Shown here piece by piece: positions 33,781-50,687 of a stretch of 64,000 nucleotides of DNA. This DNA comes from Candidatus Competibacteraceae bacterium. Its GTDB lineage: Bacteria; Bacteroidota; Bacteroidia; CAIKAF01. The stretch's first letter is position 1; each line of letters opens with the position of its first letter. The DNA lies in assembly GCA_014879445.1 (NCBI GenBank), contig JACSSC010000018.1, positions 128,706-192,705 of the forward strand. The letters are read 5' to 3'. Both the position numbers and the translations under genes were made by a program. The notes under the pieces are model-generated. The model saw only the letters and a list, made by a program, of their open reading frames with translations. It had not been told where the DNA came from and did not search any database.

Positions 33781-34773
33781 ATGATAAAATTACAATGCAA
33801 CCTACTGTCTGGATTGCTTATTCTTGCAATTCTATTGTTTTTTTCCGAGATGAATTTTGCACAAACAGCAATTAATCGTCACGAAATGCCGGAGCATTTT
33901 TTTCTAACTTCCATTGAAGCCGATGGCGTAAAGTTGTTTACTAAATACAAAGGTGCCGCCATAGCTTATAATAAAAGGACCAAAGAAATACTGCTGTATG
34001 GCGAAATTAATGATGATGAGATTATTATTATTCATAAGGTTAAACATGAAATAGTTTTTAACCCTGATGAATTTAGGAGTTGCACCTATAGCAATGACGG
34101 CAAAGTAACACTATGTTCAATGCTAGAAAAAAGAACAGAAATTGTGTGTGGTATTTTTAATTGGGTTGACGAATCGTTGGTTTATGATAAATATGAGAGC
34201 ACCGACGAGTCGCTTGAGATTATCAAAAGAGCATCACTCTATTTAAAGCAACAAAAAGCAGTAGAAGCGCTCAGCGCATACGATTCGCTTAGATTCCCTG
34301 AAAGCTATATCAATACAGAGGAAGTGGCCGCTAAGATTTTAAAAGCCATGAGGCCGGTTGTAAAAGAGCAGGCAGACAAAAAAAAGTTTAAAGAAGCAGT
34401 TGCTCTATATCAATCTGCACTTACCTATAGGGGATGGAAATGGGCAGATGAAATTGAGTCGGAAGATGAAATGAAAAACAGATTTGGGAAGAATCTTTTT
34501 GGATTGACATTGCCAGATTTTCATGATATCTTGGTTGAGTATCTTCTGTATCTGAATGAAGCAAGAATGTCAGACCAGGTTGTTAAATTATATCCTAAAT
34601 ATAGAAAATGGTTCCCTTCGTCCACGGGCCTTTTGCTTCAAATAGCCGATGCATATTATTTGAAGAAAGAAAATGAGAAGGCCGGAGAATTATATTCTGC
34701 ATATGTGGCGAAGATGAAAGAACTGAAGAAAGACAAGCAAATTCCTGATTATGTTGCGCAGCGAATGAAGTAA
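33781..34773 (+). CDS. Exported protein with helical-repeat C-terminus, unknown function
   Basis: The 330-residue protein begins with a signal peptide (LLSGLLILAILLFFSEMNFA, cleavage near 27). Residues ~40-130 look like beta strands; residues ~140-330 are alpha-helical and TPR-like (AVEALSAYDSLRFPESYI, EAVALYQSALTYRGW, LLLQIADAYYLKKENEKAGELYSAYV). No enzyme motif is visible. It stands alone with long upstream and downstream gaps, so its partners are unknown. A periplasmic scaffold role is a guess. Confidence 0.7.
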   Translation: MIKLQCNLLSGLLILAILLFFSEMNFAQTAINRHEMPEHFFLTSIEADGVKLFTKYKGAAIAYNKRTKEILLYGEINDDEIIIIHKVKHEIVFNPDEFRSCTYSNDGKVTLCSMLEKRTEIVCGIFNWVDESLVYDKYESTDESLEIIKRASLYLKQQKAVEALSAYDSLRFPESYINTEEVAAKILKAMRPVVKEQADKKKFKEAVALYQSALTYRGWKWADEIESEDEMKNRFGKNLFGLTLPDFHDILVEYLLYLNEARMSDQVVKLYPKYRKWFPSSTGLLLQIADAYYLKKENEKAGELYSAYVAKMKELKKDKQIPDYVAQRMK

Positions 34774-34963
34774 AATATATTTGATAGATTATACTCTGCA
34801 ATTATTAACATAGCTGATTTAGGTTATTTTCATTGTTTCAGCATGATTCTATTGTTGATTTTCTTTGTCGGCAATACTAAGTTTATTATCATTCATTCAT
34901 ACAGATACATGGTTTTTGAGTGAAAAATATTCTTACATTTATCACACTTTAATTGAATACACT

Positions 34964-36337
34964 ATGTATGTTTTTGTGGCTAGAATTTGGAGCATTGTTT
35001 TTGCAGCGGTAGGGTTGTTGTTTGTTTTTTTTCCGATAACATTAGGAGAGCAGCTTAATGCAGCAGGAAATGTTTTAGGACTAAGCGGCCGAGTGATTTC
35101 ACAACCCGGCACACTTTGGTATTATCTTACTTTGTCGCTAATGGGCTTAATAACATTGCTTTCTTGGTATAGCGCATCAAATCCCGAAAACAAGATGTTA
35201 TGTCGCATGCTGGTAACGGCAAAGTTTATTAGCGTGTTTGGGTTTTTATTTGCGGCAATTACTATTGGTTCTGTATGGTTTTTGCCGGCATTTGCTGATT
35301 TATTTGTTGCTGCTACGCTCATTGTTTCTCATCAGTTTTTGCACGACACTAATGAGTATTTTGTACGTCAATTTAATCGAAAACAAAAGAAATTTTCTGA
35401 AGTATGGTATGGGAAAATTGACATTGATGAAGATATTGCATTTTGGTTTAGATATACTTTGTTGCAAGGTAAAGAACAAACAGCACACACATGGGCGATA
35501 TTTTTTGATAAAGGAAAAATACAAACAGGCAAAAACACATGGCCATGCAAGGCCTTAGCGCCGGGCAATATTGTTATCTTGCCAGAATCAAATGATTTGC
35601 AGCGATTTTATAATAAGCGCCAGGTTTTTCATATTGGCAATCAACACCTCGATGAAGGAAATGCGATAGGTAGTTCCGGAATCATTTCATGGGATTTACA
35701 ATTTAACTCTTCCGGATTATCGCATAGGCACAAACCCAAATTGTTACATTTGCTGGGTATCACAAAAAGCACATACGATTCTTGTTTCATAGATTTGCGT
35801 TATAGCGGTTCGGTTACTGTTGATGGAAAAACGTACACATTTCAACAAAAAACGGGAAACATAGGCCATATTTATGGAACACAAAGTGCTTATAGTTGGT
35901 CTTGGGCTCATTGTAATCATTTTAGCAATGCAGAAGGAGTTGTGTTTGAAGGCATATCGGCACGATTAAAAAAGGGAGGTAAGATTACTTCACCTATGTC
36001 ATCTTTTGTACTCTTTGAGAATGGTGTAAAAAATTCATTTACTACGATGAAATCACTTACAAAATCGTTTTCAGATATTCAGAATAATGTTTGGGAATTT
36101 AAAACAGAGAACGGTAGATATAAGTTAACAGGGCGTGCAGATTTACTTTCACCGGCTTTAGTTGAATATACAGATACAGACGGTTCAAAACTTTGGTGTT
36201 ATAATAGTAAGCTCAGTAATCTTATGCTGCAATTGACGGATAAAAAAACAGGACAGGCCAAATCTTTTGAGGCAGCTAAAACAGCTGCATTTGAAATTGT
36301 AACACGTGATGCACCTTCACGCCAGTTAGATTTATAA
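34964..36337 (+). CDS. Membrane protein with CrtC/tocopherol-cyclase-like domain
   Basis: From ATG 34964 the protein has 457 residues; an in-frame TTG at 34865 gives an extra 33 that look non-coding. Residues 1-~125 hold four membrane helices (VARIWSIVFAAVGLLFVFFP, LWYYLTLSLMGLITLL, FISVFGFLFAAITIGSVWFL, ADLFVAATLIV). The rest is a soluble beta-rich domain with VDGKTYTFQQKTGNIGHIYG and SWSWAHCNHF, which resemble the paired lipocalin-like domains of carotenoid 1,2-hydratase/AttH/tocopherol-cyclase proteins. It begins a three-gene operon with two GMC oxidoreductases (19-base gap, then a 4-base overlap). A lipid or isoprenoid substrate is inferred from the family and neighbours. Confidence 0.65.
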   Translation: MYVFVARIWSIVFAAVGLLFVFFPITLGEQLNAAGNVLGLSGRVISQPGTLWYYLTLSLMGLITLLSWYSASNPENKMLCRMLVTAKFISVFGFLFAAITIGSVWFLPAFADLFVAATLIVSHQFLHDTNEYFVRQFNRKQKKFSEVWYGKIDIDEDIAFWFRYTLLQGKEQTAHTWAIFFDKGKIQTGKNTWPCKALAPGNIVILPESNDLQRFYNKRQVFHIGNQHLDEGNAIGSSGIISWDLQFNSSGLSHRHKPKLLHLLGITKSTYDSCFIDLRYSGSVTVDGKTYTFQQKTGNIGHIYGTQSAYSWSWAHCNHFSNAEGVVFEGISARLKKGGKITSPMSSFVLFENGVKNSFTTMKSLTKSFSDIQNNVWEFKTENGRYKLTGRADLLSPALVEYTDTDGSKLWCYNSKLSNLMLQLTDKKTGQAKSFEAAKTAAFEIVTRDAPSRQLDL

Positions 36338-36356
36338 TTATCATTCAAAAATAAAG

Positions 36357-37967
36357 ATGGAAAATAACGAGGAAATTTTTGATTACATCGTCATAGGATC
36401 AGGATTTGGCGGAGCGGTTTCTGCGATGCGTCTAAGCGAGAAAGGGTACAAGGTTTTGGTAATTGAAAAAGGCAAAACGTATCATTCAAGTGATTTTCCA
36501 CAAACCAATTGGTCATTTAAAAAATATTTTTGGCTGCCTGCCTTGCGTTGGTTTGGCATTCAAAAACTTTCACTTTTCAGGGAAGTATTCATATTGAGTG
36601 GCGTGGGTGTTGGTGGCGGAAGTTTGGTGTATGCGAATACTCATATGTTTCCACCTGATGAGTTTTTTCAAAATCCGGTTTGGGCAGACATAAAAGATTG
36701 GAAAAAAACACTTACACCATTTTATGATAAAGCAAGGTTTATGTTAGGCACAGTACCTAATACTTCTTTCGACCGGGCAGACCAAGTGCTGAAAGAGCTG
36801 GCTATTGAGATGGGGCGAGAATCGTCATATAAAGGCGTAGATGTGGGTGTATATTTTGGAGATACAGAAACCGAAACAGATCCTTATTTTAAAGGGTTGG
36901 GACCACAACGTAAAGGTTGTACTCAATGTGCAGGATGTATGGTAGGATGTAGGCACAATGCAAAAAACACATTAGATAAGAACTATTTGTTTTTTGCACA
37001 AAAGAATGGAACCCAGTTGCTTGATGAAACATTGGCTGTGAAAGTTGAATTTGACGGAACATATTATCATATTTACACACGTTCTAGTACATCATTTTTT
37101 AATAAGAAAAAGAAAACGTATAAGTCCAAAGGAATCGTAATTTCAGGTGGTGTGCTTGGAACGATGGATCTGTTGTTGAAGCAGAAGCACAAATACAAAA
37201 CACTTCCAAGATTATCTAATAAATTAGGAGAAAATATTCGTACTAATTCAGAATCGTTATTGGGCGTAACATCAAGTAAAGAGAAATTAAATCATGGATT
37301 AGCGATTACTTCTGTGTTTAATCCCGACGATCATACACATATTGAGGTTGTGAAGTATCCAGATCGGTCAAATGGCATGAAATTATTTGCCACATTGGCC
37401 GCTGGCCCTGGTCATCCTGTTATAAGGGCATTTCGTTTAATGGGGAATATTATCACGCACCCAATCCAATATATTCGAATGTTGGTAGATGGTAAATGGG
37501 CTGAGAAATCAGTGATATTCCTAGTAATGCAAACGCTGGATAGTTCGATGCGGATGGTGTATAAACGATTCCCACTTTCGGGTATTTCGATGAAAAATAA
37601 AAAAGAAAACCGTGTGCCGGCATATATTGATATTGGGCAAAAGGTAATGTATGCCTATGCTAAAAAAGTGAATGGCATTCCACAAAATGCCTTGACTGAA
37701 GTATTGTTTAACATACCATCTACAGCACATATATTAGGCGGATGCCCGATGGGACTGAATGAAAATGAAGGCGTCGTAAATGATAGGATGCAGGCCTTTG
37801 GTTATCCCGAATTTTATGTACTCGATGGCTCAATAGTTCCCTGCAACATTGGTGTAAACCCCAGCTTAACGATTACGGCATTGAGCGAATATGCCATGTC
37901 TTTTATTCCTGAAAAACAAGGTAATATAATTCGTCCGATTGAAGAGGAGCTGTCATTAAAAGTATGA
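36357..37967 (+). CDS. GMC oxidoreductase, cholesterol-oxidase-like, with four-cysteine cluster
   Basis: The 536-residue flavoenzyme has the FAD motif VIGSGFGGAVSAMRLSEKGY, a second FAD contact GVGVGGGSLVYANT, and the C-terminal GMC signature with the catalytic His in AHILGGCPMG and Asn in GVNPSLTITAL. It resembles cholesterol oxidase-like GMC enzymes. At 188-198 it has CTQCAGCMVGC, a CX2CX2CX3C spacing like a [4Fe-4S] ferredoxin site. That cluster is known in some family members, but its metal content is unproven here. No signal peptide. It overlaps the second GMC gene by 4 bases, so both are produced together. Confidence 0.85.
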   Translation: MENNEEIFDYIVIGSGFGGAVSAMRLSEKGYKVLVIEKGKTYHSSDFPQTNWSFKKYFWLPALRWFGIQKLSLFREVFILSGVGVGGGSLVYANTHMFPPDEFFQNPVWADIKDWKKTLTPFYDKARFMLGTVPNTSFDRADQVLKELAIEMGRESSYKGVDVGVYFGDTETETDPYFKGLGPQRKGCTQCAGCMVGCRHNAKNTLDKNYLFFAQKNGTQLLDETLAVKVEFDGTYYHIYTRSSTSFFNKKKKTYKSKGIVISGGVLGTMDLLLKQKHKYKTLPRLSNKLGENIRTNSESLLGVTSSKEKLNHGLAITSVFNPDDHTHIEVVKYPDRSNGMKLFATLAAGPGHPVIRAFRLMGNIITHPIQYIRMLVDGKWAEKSVIFLVMQTLDSSMRMVYKRFPLSGISMKNKKENRVPAYIDIGQKVMYAYAKKVNGIPQNALTEVLFNIPSTAHILGGCPMGLNENEGVVNDRMQAFGYPEFYVLDGSIVPCNIGVNPSLTITALSEYAMSFIPEKQGNIIRPIEEELSLKV

Positions 37968-39766
37968 AGAAGAGGCGTTTTTCAACACGATGGCTTCGTT
38001 TGGCGGGTGTGCCAGAAGATGTGTTAGTATCAAGGGTTGAATTGGCCAGCAATCGAGTTCGGCGATTTCCAAAGTGGCACGCCTTGATGTATCCCTGCTT
38101 GTTAGCATGTGTAAATAATTTTGGCCCACTATTTTTAATGAATAAATGGAGGGCAGCCCATGCATTATCCGATGACGATTTTTTGAAATTTTGTAGTTGT
38201 TTCAGAGAGCACTCATCTTCATTTGTTCGACTATTGGCCATATTTGTTTTTTATCCGCTTTCACAGGTTTTAGAGAATGAATCATCGGAAAATCAGGCAT
38301 ACAGCCATCCTTTACAATCTGTTTGTAATACAACGCCTGAATGGAATGATAAAGAGGTTGCAGATTATATTATCATTGGAACTGGTGCCGGTGGGGCACC
38401 GGTGGCTGCTGAGCTGGCACGCAAAGGAAAAAGTGTACTCATCATTGAAAAAGGAGGGCTTGTTCAAATTGAATCACCGGGCAAAGTGTTGGAAAAAAAT
38501 TATGTATCACAGGGCTTTGTATCTACACTAAATGGAAGTACACTGATGGTTTTTGCAGGGCAAACAGTGGGTGGCACAACGAGTGTTAATTCTGGAACAT
38601 CACTTAATCCATTACCCGAATGTTTGTCAGAATGGGATGAGTGTTGGGGTACACATTTTTCGGATGGACTATTGCAACCCTTTCTTGAAAGAGTAAAAGA
38701 AGACATACATATTTGTGTGCCGGGAGAAGACGTTCTTAGCGAGTCATCACGTTTGTTTAGAGAGGGGATGAGTAGAATTGGACGACACGACACCTATATT
38801 CTTCCACGAAATATTCAGCAGTGTAAAGGTTCGGGTCGTTGTGCTTTTGGTTGTCCGAAAGGGGCAAAGCAAAGCACTGATTTGGCTTATTTGCCACAGG
38901 CCATACAGCATGGGGCAAAATTATTTCATCAAACAGAAGCCTTACGCATTAAGGACGGAAAAAAGAATGTTGAAGTATTGGTAGATCATTGCGGAGTTCA
39001 AAGAACATTTAAAGCCAAAAAACTGATCATTGCTGCTGGTGCGCTTTTTACCCCTAGTTTATTAAGAAAAAACAAATTGGGGAGTAATTTTAGCCGTGCA
39101 GGATATCATTTACAGATTCACCCTGCTACAAAAGTTTTTGCCCATTTTCCCAATCATTATGTAGGATTTGCCGGGATACCTCAAGGTATGGGTTACAGAA
39201 TGCCGGCGCCATCTCGCGTAACCTTAGAAGGAATACATACTCCTAAGAGTTTAACTGCACCCATTATTTCTGTAGGCGGTAAGCGTTTTAATGAATGGAT
39301 GAGTAGGATAGAGTCGTTGGCCAGCTTTGGTTTGATGGTTCGAGACAGAGCAACTGGTCGTGTGATATATATATCAGGTCAACCGTATTTACAATATCAC
39401 CTGCATCCTGATGATGCGACAGATATTGCCTCGGGTCTTAGGGTAATAGCTGAAGCTTTTTTTGCTGCAGGTGCCGAACGTGTATTGATGCCTTACGGTG
39501 GCGTAAGCCCAATTGAAATGAAAGCACCTGATGAATTAAATCGAATTCCGCAAATTCATTCGCGCCATATTATGCTCAGTGGATTCCATCCCTTAGGAAC
39601 AGCTGGCATAGGTCGTGTGGTAGATGATACATTGAAACTTTTTGGGTCGGAGAATATATATATATGTGATGCATCTGTATTACCGTCTTCTCCCGGAGTC
39701 AATCCGCAAGTAACGGTAATGGCATTATCTCTACGTTTGGCCGATCATCTCATCATGAATTTCTGA
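37964..39766 (+). CDS. GMC oxidoreductase, long-chain alcohol oxidase-like
   Basis: The 600-residue protein has an extra N-terminal ~115-residue helical region (a gluconate-2-dehydrogenase-subunit-3-like or FAO-like prefix), then the FAD motif IGTGAGGAPVAAELARKGKSV, GGTTSVNSGTSL, a CX5CX3C cluster (CKGSGRCAFGC) where the paralogue has its four-cysteine set, and the C-terminal GMC catalytic His and Asn (SGFHPLGTAG, GVNPQVTVMALS). This arrangement resembles long-chain alcohol oxidases. It is not a close copy of the first GMC enzyme, so the pair probably acts on successive or different alcohols. Confidence 0.85.
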   Translation: MKKRRFSTRWLRLAGVPEDVLVSRVELASNRVRRFPKWHALMYPCLLACVNNFGPLFLMNKWRAAHALSDDDFLKFCSCFREHSSSFVRLLAIFVFYPLSQVLENESSENQAYSHPLQSVCNTTPEWNDKEVADYIIIGTGAGGAPVAAELARKGKSVLIIEKGGLVQIESPGKVLEKNYVSQGFVSTLNGSTLMVFAGQTVGGTTSVNSGTSLNPLPECLSEWDECWGTHFSDGLLQPFLERVKEDIHICVPGEDVLSESSRLFREGMSRIGRHDTYILPRNIQQCKGSGRCAFGCPKGAKQSTDLAYLPQAIQHGAKLFHQTEALRIKDGKKNVEVLVDHCGVQRTFKAKKLIIAAGALFTPSLLRKNKLGSNFSRAGYHLQIHPATKVFAHFPNHYVGFAGIPQGMGYRMPAPSRVTLEGIHTPKSLTAPIISVGGKRFNEWMSRIESLASFGLMVRDRATGRVIYISGQPYLQYHLHPDDATDIASGLRVIAEAFFAAGAERVLMPYGGVSPIEMKAPDELNRIPQIHSRHIMLSGFHPLGTAGIGRVVDDTLKLFGSENIYICDASVLPSSPGVNPQVTVMALSLRLADHLIMNF

Positions 39767-46870: not shown

Positions 46871-49246
46871 TTATTGTTGTTCAGGCGTTTTTGATGACGT
46901 GCTGCAGCTTATCATTTCAATTACTCCAATATCTCCATCAACGATAACCTCATCGCCAGTGCGAAGCAACTGTGTTATGTTGGGGATGCCCGTTATGGCA
47001 GGCATTTGGAGTTCACGAAAAATCATGGCTTCATTTGATAATGGATTCCCTACTTCAGAAATGATGCCGGCACAGTATCTGAAATAGGGGGCATATGACA
47101 AGTCAGTAAATGGCGTTACCAGCACTTCATTAGGCATTATTTTTCTAGCATCAGCTAAAGTATAAACAATACGAACTTTTCCTTTTGAAAGACCGGGACT
47201 CATTGGTGTGCCTTTGATAATGAATTGACCATCGTCAGTTGTGATTGAATCTCCACTGTCTATTGGATAAGGTTTGCCACTATAAAACTGCTTAAAATGG
47301 AATGATTTGCTAAGTTCAAATGAAGCTTTTCGGTTTATAATAATAGCATTCCAATTATCTACATTTGCGCTTTGCAGCATCAAGCCAATCTCCTCGTGTT
47401 TTAAATAGTATATATCATCAATATGATTTATAATTCCTTTTTCAATCAATTTTTGGGACAGTAAATGAAAAGCTCTTTTGATGCGATATGTTAAATCTGA
47501 AATTTGAGACAGGGAGTTGTCTCTTCTGATAATGGATCGTTGAAGTTGTAATACTAATATTTGAGTGATGTTCTTTTTAAAAATCCCCATGCCTTCGTAT
47601 GCCATATTTCTTGAATGTTCAATATTTTTATTTTTTTCATCAGCATGTTTTTCTTTTTGTAATGTTTCTTGCAAGAGTTGCACAAGTTTGTCAGGATTGT
47701 CTTTCAGCGAAGGGGTCATCAATTCGTATATATCGTCAGTAGTATGTCCAAATTGTTGAAGTAATTTTTTGTAGAGTGCTGCGATATTTTTAGGGGCAAA
47801 TCGAGTTATCATCAACAATGCATCTTCGCTGTTGGCAGATGAAAAGCCATTTTTAAAATTAGAATCCCTTTTGATCTCATTTACTAGCGAATACAGCAGT
47901 CGCAGGTATGTTGTACTTTTGTTATTAGAAATTAATGCAAATAAGTAATTAAGTTTTTGTACCTCTTTTTCATCAGGAACAGTACTTTTTGAGATGCTAA
48001 GTGAAAGGGCAGAGTAGTATGCCACGCAACCATATGAAAGTAGAAGATATGGATAGTAAATGTTTGGGAAGGCCTTTAAGGTATTATCAATCCAATTATA
48101 TATTGAATGTTCGTCAGATTTATCAATAGGTGGGATTTGACGAATTCCGAGTTCAATTTTTTTCTGTGTTAAATAGGGGGTCAGAAGTAATCGGATGTTA
48201 CGCAAAAAGTTTTTCCATCTAACGAAATCTGAAACCTGATATGGGGGTTTATGCAAACCAATAATTTGTCCGAAAATGAAAAATTCAAGATTATCGGTAG
48301 TGGTTCGTGCGATATAAATGCTTAAATCATGAATGGCAGTAACATTGATAAAAATCCTGTTGTAGAAGGATTTATAATACCGGCCAGCTATAGCCAAGTG
48401 TTTTGGAATGCCACTAGCGGTTGCATACTTAATAAAACAGGTGTCAACTAGTGGATAGAACACAGAAATAGAAAGAGGCGTATATGCGCCATGAAATGTT
48501 TCGTTTTGGCTACCATAAGAAAATAGTGTATTGTTATCACTTATTTCGGTGTCAAGGGCATTGATATGGTGGGCTTTAGATAAAGATAGCTTTTCTACAA
48601 AAAGGACAGTTAAGTTGTTTTTCTGATCAGCAGCCCATTCGATTCGAACCGGCCCCCATTTTTTTTCGATGGATTCGGCAAAATGTATCAGTTGAGAAGC
48701 CAAGCATTTATCTATCCACACAGGTATAAATGAGAATTGTTCAATGGAGTTTTTGTAAAGCGAAAAGCTAGTAGCTCGTTTTGACGTATCTGTAATAACA
48801 GAGGATGGGAAAGTAATTTGAAAAAAAAATTTATCACGTCTTTCCGAAATTAAATCAGCTGTATGAATAATCCCCTGGGTATAGCTAGGGTAAACAGGGT
48901 GAATGAAAATCTCAATATATGTTGCGTTTTGACGCGTATCATTGTGTTTTTTATACGAATCATGTATGGCTTGATAAATGTGAAATGGAACGGATAATAG
49001 TTGAAAGTGAAACAACAAGGGTAGCTCTTCTGAGTGCTCATTGCCAATGATGATACGTAGTTTAATCAATGGCATTTTATAGGTTGAAAGCCAGTTTATA
49101 ATTTCAGAAATGAGAAAATCCTTTGGATGTGATTTGCGTTGATGAATGAATGGAGCAATGGCGAAATCGTCTGAATGATTAAGTTGTTTCATAAAAACAA
49201 ACGATTCGTGCCAATAATCGGTTGATATACTGCTCTGATGATTCAT
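46871..49246 (-). CDS. Degenerate PEP-utilising enzyme, rifampicin-phosphotransferase-like pseudoenzyme
   Basis: The 791-residue protein has the layout of the rifampicin phosphotransferase/PEP synthase family but key features are lost. The N-terminus lacks the VGGKGxxL start of the ATP-grasp domain and begins at a region matching its second half (YIEIFIHPVYPSYTQGIIHTAD and EWAADQKNNLTVLFVEKL, where the usual QARP is missing). The middle carries the RPH-like YGHxxDDIYEL block as FGHTTDDIYELMTPSLKDNP. The C-terminal swivelling domain reads GIISEVGNPLSNEAMIFREL, where the catalytic His that becomes phosphorylated is Asn738. The domain fold is clear, but phosphotransfer seems impossible. It may act as a scaffold or bind a ligand. 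Confidence 0.75.
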   Translation of the reverse strand: MNHQSSISTDYWHESFVFMKQLNHSDDFAIAPFIHQRKSHPKDFLISEIINWLSTYKMPLIKLRIIIGNEHSEELPLLFHFQLLSVPFHIYQAIHDSYKKHNDTRQNATYIEIFIHPVYPSYTQGIIHTADLISERRDKFFFQITFPSSVITDTSKRATSFSLYKNSIEQFSFIPVWIDKCLASQLIHFAESIEKKWGPVRIEWAADQKNNLTVLFVEKLSLSKAHHINALDTEISDNNTLFSYGSQNETFHGAYTPLSISVFYPLVDTCFIKYATASGIPKHLAIAGRYYKSFYNRIFINVTAIHDLSIYIARTTTDNLEFFIFGQIIGLHKPPYQVSDFVRWKNFLRNIRLLLTPYLTQKKIELGIRQIPPIDKSDEHSIYNWIDNTLKAFPNIYYPYLLLSYGCVAYYSALSLSISKSTVPDEKEVQKLNYLFALISNNKSTTYLRLLYSLVNEIKRDSNFKNGFSSANSEDALLMITRFAPKNIAALYKKLLQQFGHTTDDIYELMTPSLKDNPDKLVQLLQETLQKEKHADEKNKNIEHSRNMAYEGMGIFKKNITQILVLQLQRSIIRRDNSLSQISDLTYRIKRAFHLLSQKLIEKGIINHIDDIYYLKHEEIGLMLQSANVDNWNAIIINRKASFELSKSFHFKQFYSGKPYPIDSGDSITTDDGQFIIKGTPMSPGLSKGKVRIVYTLADARKIMPNEVLVTPFTDLSYAPYFRYCAGIISEVGNPLSNEAMIFRELQMPAITGIPNITQLLRTGDEVIVDGDIGVIEMISCSTSSKTPEQQ

Positions 49247-49382: not shown

Positions 49383-50687
49383 ATGAAAAGCATAATTTTT
49401 TTAATTTTCTGTTTGGGCGCGTATTTCATTTCTAATGCCCAGACAAGCGATACGATACCTATTAAAAACGGGTATTTACAGGTTTCTTTTATTTCGCCTA
49501 TTTCCACAGCATGGAAAAACAGTATTAATCGGTATTATCATTTTTCACTTAATCTCGTTTATGGACGAACAGGTGGGGTGCAAGGTGTTGAAATGGGTTT
49601 CATTAATCAAACTCTTGGCAGGGTTAATGGATGGCAAACAGGAGCCGTTAATATTGTAAATGGGAAATTTAATGGGGTGCAAGTTGGTGTTTTGATGAAT
49701 GTAAATAAATCAAACACAAACGGATTGCAATTATCAGGATTGTGGACACATAATCAAGGAAATTTTTCAGGATTTCAGTTTTCATGGTTTGGTAACACAA
49801 CATGGGGCGATGTGTATGGGGCGCAGTTAAGTCATTTATGGAATCATTCAAATAAGTCGTTGTATGGTATTCAGTTTGCACTGGGGCCAAATACTGCGAA
49901 GCATCATGCATATGGCATTCAGTTTTCTGCCACAATGAATTATGCAGGATATAATCACAAGGGCATACAGTTTGCTTTTCTAGCCAATTATGTTGGCGGG
50001 CGCTCACAGGGGTTTCAAATCAGTCCTTTAAATATTGCACTAAAAGGTGCGGGTAACCAAATTGGGGTAATTAATTATACGGATTCGGCAACTCGATTTC
50101 AAGGGGGTTTAATCAACATTGCTCGTCGTTCGGGCGCTTTTCAAATAGGTTTGATTAATTATTCAGGCGACAATACCGTTGCCCCAATCGGATTAGTTAA
50201 CATTGTTAAAAAGGGGTATAACAAGCTCGAAATTTGGGGCGGAGAGTTACAATCATTCAACATTGCATTAAAAACGGGCGGGCGTAATGTATATTCAATT
50301 TTGAATGTTGGGATAAATCCTTTTACACCTAATTTTTTCTGGACAACCGGCTGGGGTGTGGGTGGTCATATTCCGGTTTATAAGCGATTGTATGTAGATT
50401 TGGATAATATAACTTCTTTAGTGCATATTAATGAAGCGTTTTCAATTGGTAAAGGGAAAAATACATTTCTCAATCAAACACGTTTTATGGCGGGCATATC
50501 TGTTCATAAACGTGTAGCAATTTTTCTTGGGCCGGTTGTGAATTTTTTATTTTCAGACAACAATCAACTGATTGACGGGAAAAACGGAATTGACTTAGCG
50601 CCTACATTCCGCACAGGATACGGGAAAGTTAATGACTATCAGTTTGCCATATGGCCTGGAATAGGTGGAGGTATTCGATTCTTCTAG
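49383..50687 (+). CDS. Surface-repeat protein of the LA_2272 type
   Basis: The 434-residue protein has a signal peptide (IIFLIFCLGAYFISNAQT) and, from ~55 to ~300, a series of short repeats of the form N/G-x-x-x-G-x-Q-x-G-x-x-N (GVQVGVLMNV, GLQLSGLWTHN, GIQFALGPNTAKHHAYGIQFSA, GFQISPLNIA, GGLINIARRSGAFQIGLINYSG). This pattern is that of LA_2272-type surface proteins and resembles a beta-solenoid or barrel. The C-terminal ~130 residues are barrel-like with glycine and aromatic residues. Probably outer-membrane or surface located; no function is known. Confidence 0.72.
   Translation: MKSIIFLIFCLGAYFISNAQTSDTIPIKNGYLQVSFISPISTAWKNSINRYYHFSLNLVYGRTGGVQGVEMGFINQTLGRVNGWQTGAVNIVNGKFNGVQVGVLMNVNKSNTNGLQLSGLWTHNQGNFSGFQFSWFGNTTWGDVYGAQLSHLWNHSNKSLYGIQFALGPNTAKHHAYGIQFSATMNYAGYNHKGIQFAFLANYVGGRSQGFQISPLNIALKGAGNQIGVINYTDSATRFQGGLINIARRSGAFQIGLINYSGDNTVAPIGLVNIVKKGYNKLEIWGGELQSFNIALKTGGRNVYSILNVGINPFTPNFFWTTGWGVGGHIPVYKRLYVDLDNITSLVHINEAFSIGKGKNTFLNQTRFMAGISVHKRVAIFLGPVVNFLFSDNNQLIDGKNGIDLAPTFRTGYGKVNDYQFAIWPGIGGGIRFF

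Follow-up and report, generated by a model that had tools for sequence, protein, structure and literature searches.

A full-length RPH-like dikinase without phosphohistidine and nucleotide site, probably retained as a pseudoenzyme

The locus examined here raises the question of whether a protein with the full build of an RPH-like dikinase, and with asparagine at the position of the phosphorylated histidine, is a pseudoenzyme kept in evolution or a gene in decay. Enzymes of this kind phosphorylate rifampicin and other small molecules. The locus lies in a stretch of DNA of 64,000 nucleotides, hereafter the window, where its open reading frame (46871-49246, minus strand) begins with ATG and runs for 791 codons without internal stop. 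The features discussed below are as follows, RPH-Lm being the structurally known reference protein and G003 the only congener found to carry an orthologue.

46871..49246, minus strand: pseudo-dikinase gene, intact open reading frame of 791 aa with RPH-like three-domain architecture
48542..49246, minus strand: degenerate ATP-grasp region, residues 1-235, without PPDK_N match, aligned by hhalign from residue 27
49202..49204, minus strand: Ser15 in place of the ATP-binding lysine of the GGK motif (Lys22 of RPH-Lm); Val in the G003 orthologue
48590..48601, minus strand: F-V-E-K (216-219) in place of Q-x-R-P; Y-I-E-K in the G003 orthologue
47252..48541, minus strand: central and helical (acceptor-binding) region, residues 236-665, defined by BLAST and profile alignment with homologues predicted to be active
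47519..47524, minus strand: Arg575-Asp576, counterpart of Arg666-Glu667 of RPH-Lm; Arg-Glu in the G003 orthologue
46907..47239, minus strand: swivel (PEP-utilisers mobile) domain, residues 670-780, PF00391, E 1.4e-14
47033..47035, minus strand: codon AAT for Asn738 at the position of the phosphorylated His, aligned with His825 of RPH-Lm (PDB 5fbs); Asn also in the G003 orthologue

The sole Pfam match in the protein is that to the PEP-utilisers swivel domain, covering residues 705-774, and no match to PPDK_N was obtained. In NCBIfam, models for PEP synthase-like proteins, PigC/RedH and RPH matched below threshold and chiefly over the C-terminal half, the score with the rifampicin phosphotransferase model NF041857 being 82.7 bits, below its equivalog cut-off of 999; the PHROGs search gave no match. 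BLAST and profile alignment reveal a three-domain order with C-terminal swivel domain as in RPH-like and PEP-utilising dikinases. Profile-profile alignment with hhalign against a family of RPH-like proteins from a sister genus, g5, covers residues 27-776 (E 1e-57), so that homology with these proteins extends over the entire architecture and takes in the ATP-grasp region. An earlier note on this DNA had considered the start of the ATP-grasp domain to be absent; given the span of this alignment, it is instead degenerate. AlphaFold models were uninformative, with a pLDDT of 34 for the full-length protein (alignment of three rows) and of 38 for the swivel domain alone (two rows).

The extent of the catalytic losses can be evaluated by comparison with the rifampin phosphotransferase RPH-Lm (PDB 5FBS, 5FBT and 5FBU), which shows the same order of ATP-grasp, acceptor-binding and C-terminal swivel domains, its significant sequence match to the window protein being confined to residues 590-779. 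With respect to RPH-Lm, His825 is replaced by Asn, Arg311 by Glu and Gln309 by Phe, while the counterpart of Lys670 is lost and the SS..EDG..SFAGQ loop of the ATP-grasp domain is gone. His825 is the phosphorylated histidine of RPH-Lm, the activity of which is abolished by the Lys22Ala substitution (PMC4844700); activity is abolished also by H581Q in HpeH (PMC12167813) and by His827Ala in the RPH of B. cereus, a result that we take from its citation in PMC12167813. Two observations of the earlier note, namely LSN in place of LSH at residues 736-738 and the lack of a QARP-type arginine segment, are confirmed by the alignment of Asn738 with His825 and by the presence of F216-V-E218-K219 in the place of QxRP. 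Its statement that all catalytic sites had been lost was too broad, since R64, E203 and R575 (equivalent to Arg117, Glu297 and Arg666 of RPH-Lm) are kept and Asp576 corresponds to Glu667; Arg666 and Glu667 are involved in phosphate handling (PMC4844700).

A search among related genomes found matches in 16 of 100. Six genomes of genus g5, which belongs to the same family, have homologues of 796-815 aa (L003-L008) that resemble the window protein in length, start and domain order, with 22-25% identity over the whole alignment and 26-29% in local matches. Unlike the window protein, these homologues keep the motifs AGGK, AVRSS..EDG..SFAGQ, DLEWAID..QxRP, RHGHRG, REKSK and LSHGAVVARE, which suggests that they are active enzymes. 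Outside the genus of the window they are the most similar to the window protein, with 220-242 bits vs. at most 77 bits for the others, and in the phylogenetic tree their clade is sister to the pair formed by the window and G003 proteins, with support of 100/100. The stem of this pair measures 3.07 changes per site, so that long branches meet in the tree; the similarity ranking gives the same placement. The swivel histidine is present in all other homologues in which the motif was read, including the six g5 proteins, a count that leaves out three more distant matches of PPDK/PEP-synthase type. The interval between the lysine of GGK and the arginine of AVRSS spans 45 residues in g5 proteins, 49 in the window protein and 95 in RPH-Lm (Lys22 to Arg117). 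Because the sister proteins, presumed active, begin at nearly the same position and are just as short between the two motifs, the shortened N-terminus is ancestral, and not the sign of inactivation that the earlier note had seen in it.

Within its own genus, the protein has an orthologue in one of three congeners, the metagenome-assembled genome Flavobacteriales bacterium UW1SPNA046 (G003), with 48% identity. This orthologue is divided into two contig-end pieces with approximately 26 residues unsequenced between them; disruption by a transposon is unlikely, given that the homologous sequence continues in frame up to both contig ends. In the swivel domain it shows LTNES, with Asn for the histidine, and it shares with the window protein the replacement of Arg311 by Glu, of the following Pro by Lys and of His by Asn, as well as the loss of Lys22. 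Sequencing or assembly errors can be ruled out as the origin of these losses, which recur in another assembly whose protein is 48% identical. Conservation of the Asn, which had been proposed as a check, is thus found in the one orthologue available. Intact histidine in close relatives had been named as evidence against a pseudoenzyme; no such relative was found in the genus, whereas the sister genus does have the histidine, at 22-25% identity. The other two congeners gave no match, and the gene, missing from two of the four genomes of the genus, is dispensable there. A contig profile search with the single window protein found no match, and when repeated with an alignment of two rows, one of them the G003 pieces linked by X, it recovered only G003. 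The protein is best read as a lineage-specific pseudoenzyme of an already known dikinase family, with a range of two species.

Has this pair been maintained by selection? Between window and G003, pS amounts to 0.784, which is saturated, and pN to 0.344 (765 codons); with dS saturated a dN/dS figure is not usable and was replaced by a comparison with neighbouring genes and by neutral simulation. Neither copy has an internal stop over all sequenced codons. Under neutrality the gene acquired a mean of 10 stops already at 0.1 substitutions per site, none of 200 runs was stop-free at any of five distances, and identity fell to about 18% at one substitution per site, compared with the 48% observed. 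Saturated dS, open frames and the stops in every neutral run together indicate that purifying selection acted during most of the period after the two species diverged. These results weigh against slow decay, in which function was lost and the sequence drifted under relaxed selection with its frame open by chance in both genomes, an explanation that we consider improbable even though other facts would suit it: the gene is missing from two congeners, the partner gene adjoining the homologues predicted to be active is absent from the genus, and none of the 22 gene pairs compared has a higher dN than this one (0.46), which exceeds the median of its 21 neighbours (0.13; maximum 0.38) about 3.5-fold. 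In the proposed test by dN/dS and relaxed selection, the retention of an open frame speaks for constraint and the dN above all 21 neighbours does not; selection may have been relaxed very recently in one lineage. With Asn in the G003 orthologue, saturated dS, pN of 0.344 and open frames, the view of the earlier note, a retained pseudoenzyme and not simple decay, is supported. We consider it probable that the protein is a full-length RPH-like dikinase that has lost nucleotide site and phosphohistidine and is kept by purifying selection.

Constraint is unevenly distributed along the protein. In the ATP-grasp region, both pseudoenzymes keep 13 of the 89 positions that are invariant in the six g5 proteins, vs. 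68 of 202 outside it (Fisher p 7e-4), with 48 of 146 kept in the central and helical region (residues 236-665). At 82 positions invariant in the g5 clade, both species have the same new residue, including R>E218, P>K219, S>N734, H>N738 and G>E739. Such shared replacements, together with the retained acceptor-site arginine and its acidic neighbour, could fit an enzyme with another reaction that does not use phosphohistidine, in which Asn738-Glu739 and Glu218-Lys219 would be re-specified in a new site. We regard this as unlikely: the length of the common stem would by itself account for many of the shared residues, no operon points to a reaction and open-access papers gave no precedent in the RPH/PEP-utilising family. 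A broader proposal, that the dikinase has been rebuilt for a specific function independent of ATP and phosphate (as a ligand sensor, as a carrier or as an enzyme of new chemistry), so that EVGNxL[ST]NE..IFRE and FxEK/YxEK would be functional and not merely degenerate, may be entertained, although we lean against it.

The protein could also be one half of a split dikinase receiving its phosphate from a separate ATP-grasp protein. Two-component dikinases such as HpeHI, CreHI and PpsAB do exist (PMC12167813), and HpeH, with its RPH-related acceptor-binding and swivel domains, is similar to the window protein. These systems, however, need both a separate ATP-grasp protein and the histidine, and both are missing here. 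Neither the window genome nor G003 was found to have a PEP-utilisers domain other than that of the pseudo-dikinase, and no PPDK_N domain was detected in the four genomes of the genus (G000-G003) by a search that was positive in 13 of 14 control genomes; PPDK, PEP synthase and all other dikinases of this family thus appear to be missing from the four. Phosphate donation in trans by a PPDK_N protein was rejected on this basis, the acceptor histidine being Asn in both species anyway. Split dikinases like HpeHI are no model here, since their PPDK_N partner has no equivalent in the genus, and we give this possibility hardly any credence.

Divergent from the pseudo-dikinase, a gene at 49383-50687 on the plus strand codes for an LA_2272-type surface-repeat protein, of which each of the three congeners has a homologue at 65-78% identity. 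In G003 its homologue (78% identity, with one in-frame TAG) lies beside the pseudo-dikinase orthologue as in the window, and is followed by the same order of genes for phosphoribosyltransferase, GNAT, FtsH and RsfS. These neighbours point to no firm function for the pseudo-dikinase. The g5 loci are arranged differently: the dikinase gene with intact motifs adjoins a gene for a protein of about 340 aa, a pair conserved in six genomes, and this second gene, of which three out of four products scanned resembled DUF7065 weakly and short of the Pfam cut-off, was not found in the genus of the window. A UvrA-like gene comes next in three of the four g5 loci viewed (L020, L021 and L023 of L020-L023). 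Elsewhere in the window (33781-39766, plus strand) there is a block of four genes, encoding a 330-aa protein without Pfam match, a tocopherol-cyclase-like protein (34865-36337) and two GMC oxidoreductases, which is conserved in G003 with 70-83% identity. The tocopherol-cyclase-like gene occurs only in G000 and G003 among 16 genomes of the family, a distribution like that of the pseudo-dikinase; we take a tie between the two as no more than a lead, given that G003 has the block on a different contig and that the pair could simply be each other's closest relatives.

Returning to the probable pseudoenzyme, its ancestor would have been a full-length RPH-like dikinase for small molecules, equipped with ATP-grasp, acceptor-binding domain and phosphohistidine swivel. 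Nucleotide site and phosphohistidine would then have been lost, most simply once and before the split of the two species of the genus, after which the protein would have been held by purifying selection. The relay from ATP to histidine to acceptor would no longer be possible, but the central domain, which is retained, and the swivel with its Asn would most likely serve for the binding of a small molecule or of another protein independently of ATP, resulting in a sequestering, sensing or scaffold protein whose eroded ATP-grasp part could be structural or offer a new interaction surface. Since the acceptor and swivel parts are better conserved and the Arg-Asp/Glu pair is kept, ATP-independent ligand binding is the leading guess for the role, which we put forward tentatively on sequence grounds; a scaffold, our second guess, seems rather doubtful. 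Conserved proteins without conserved catalytic motifs, like the present one, correspond to pseudoenzymes in general (reviewed in PMC10211241). In the open-access literature, with most subscription papers outside its scope, our search found no pseudoenzyme of the PEP-utilising/RPH family.

The phosphohistidine is regarded as indispensable in swivelling dikinases. A full-length member kept by selection without histidine, ATP site and PPDK_N partner would mean that such a scaffold can persist for a different purpose, with a general importance limited by the known range of two species. Paired with the intact g5 homologues, the pseudo-dikinase offers a natural comparison for what acceptor-binding and swivel domains do alone.
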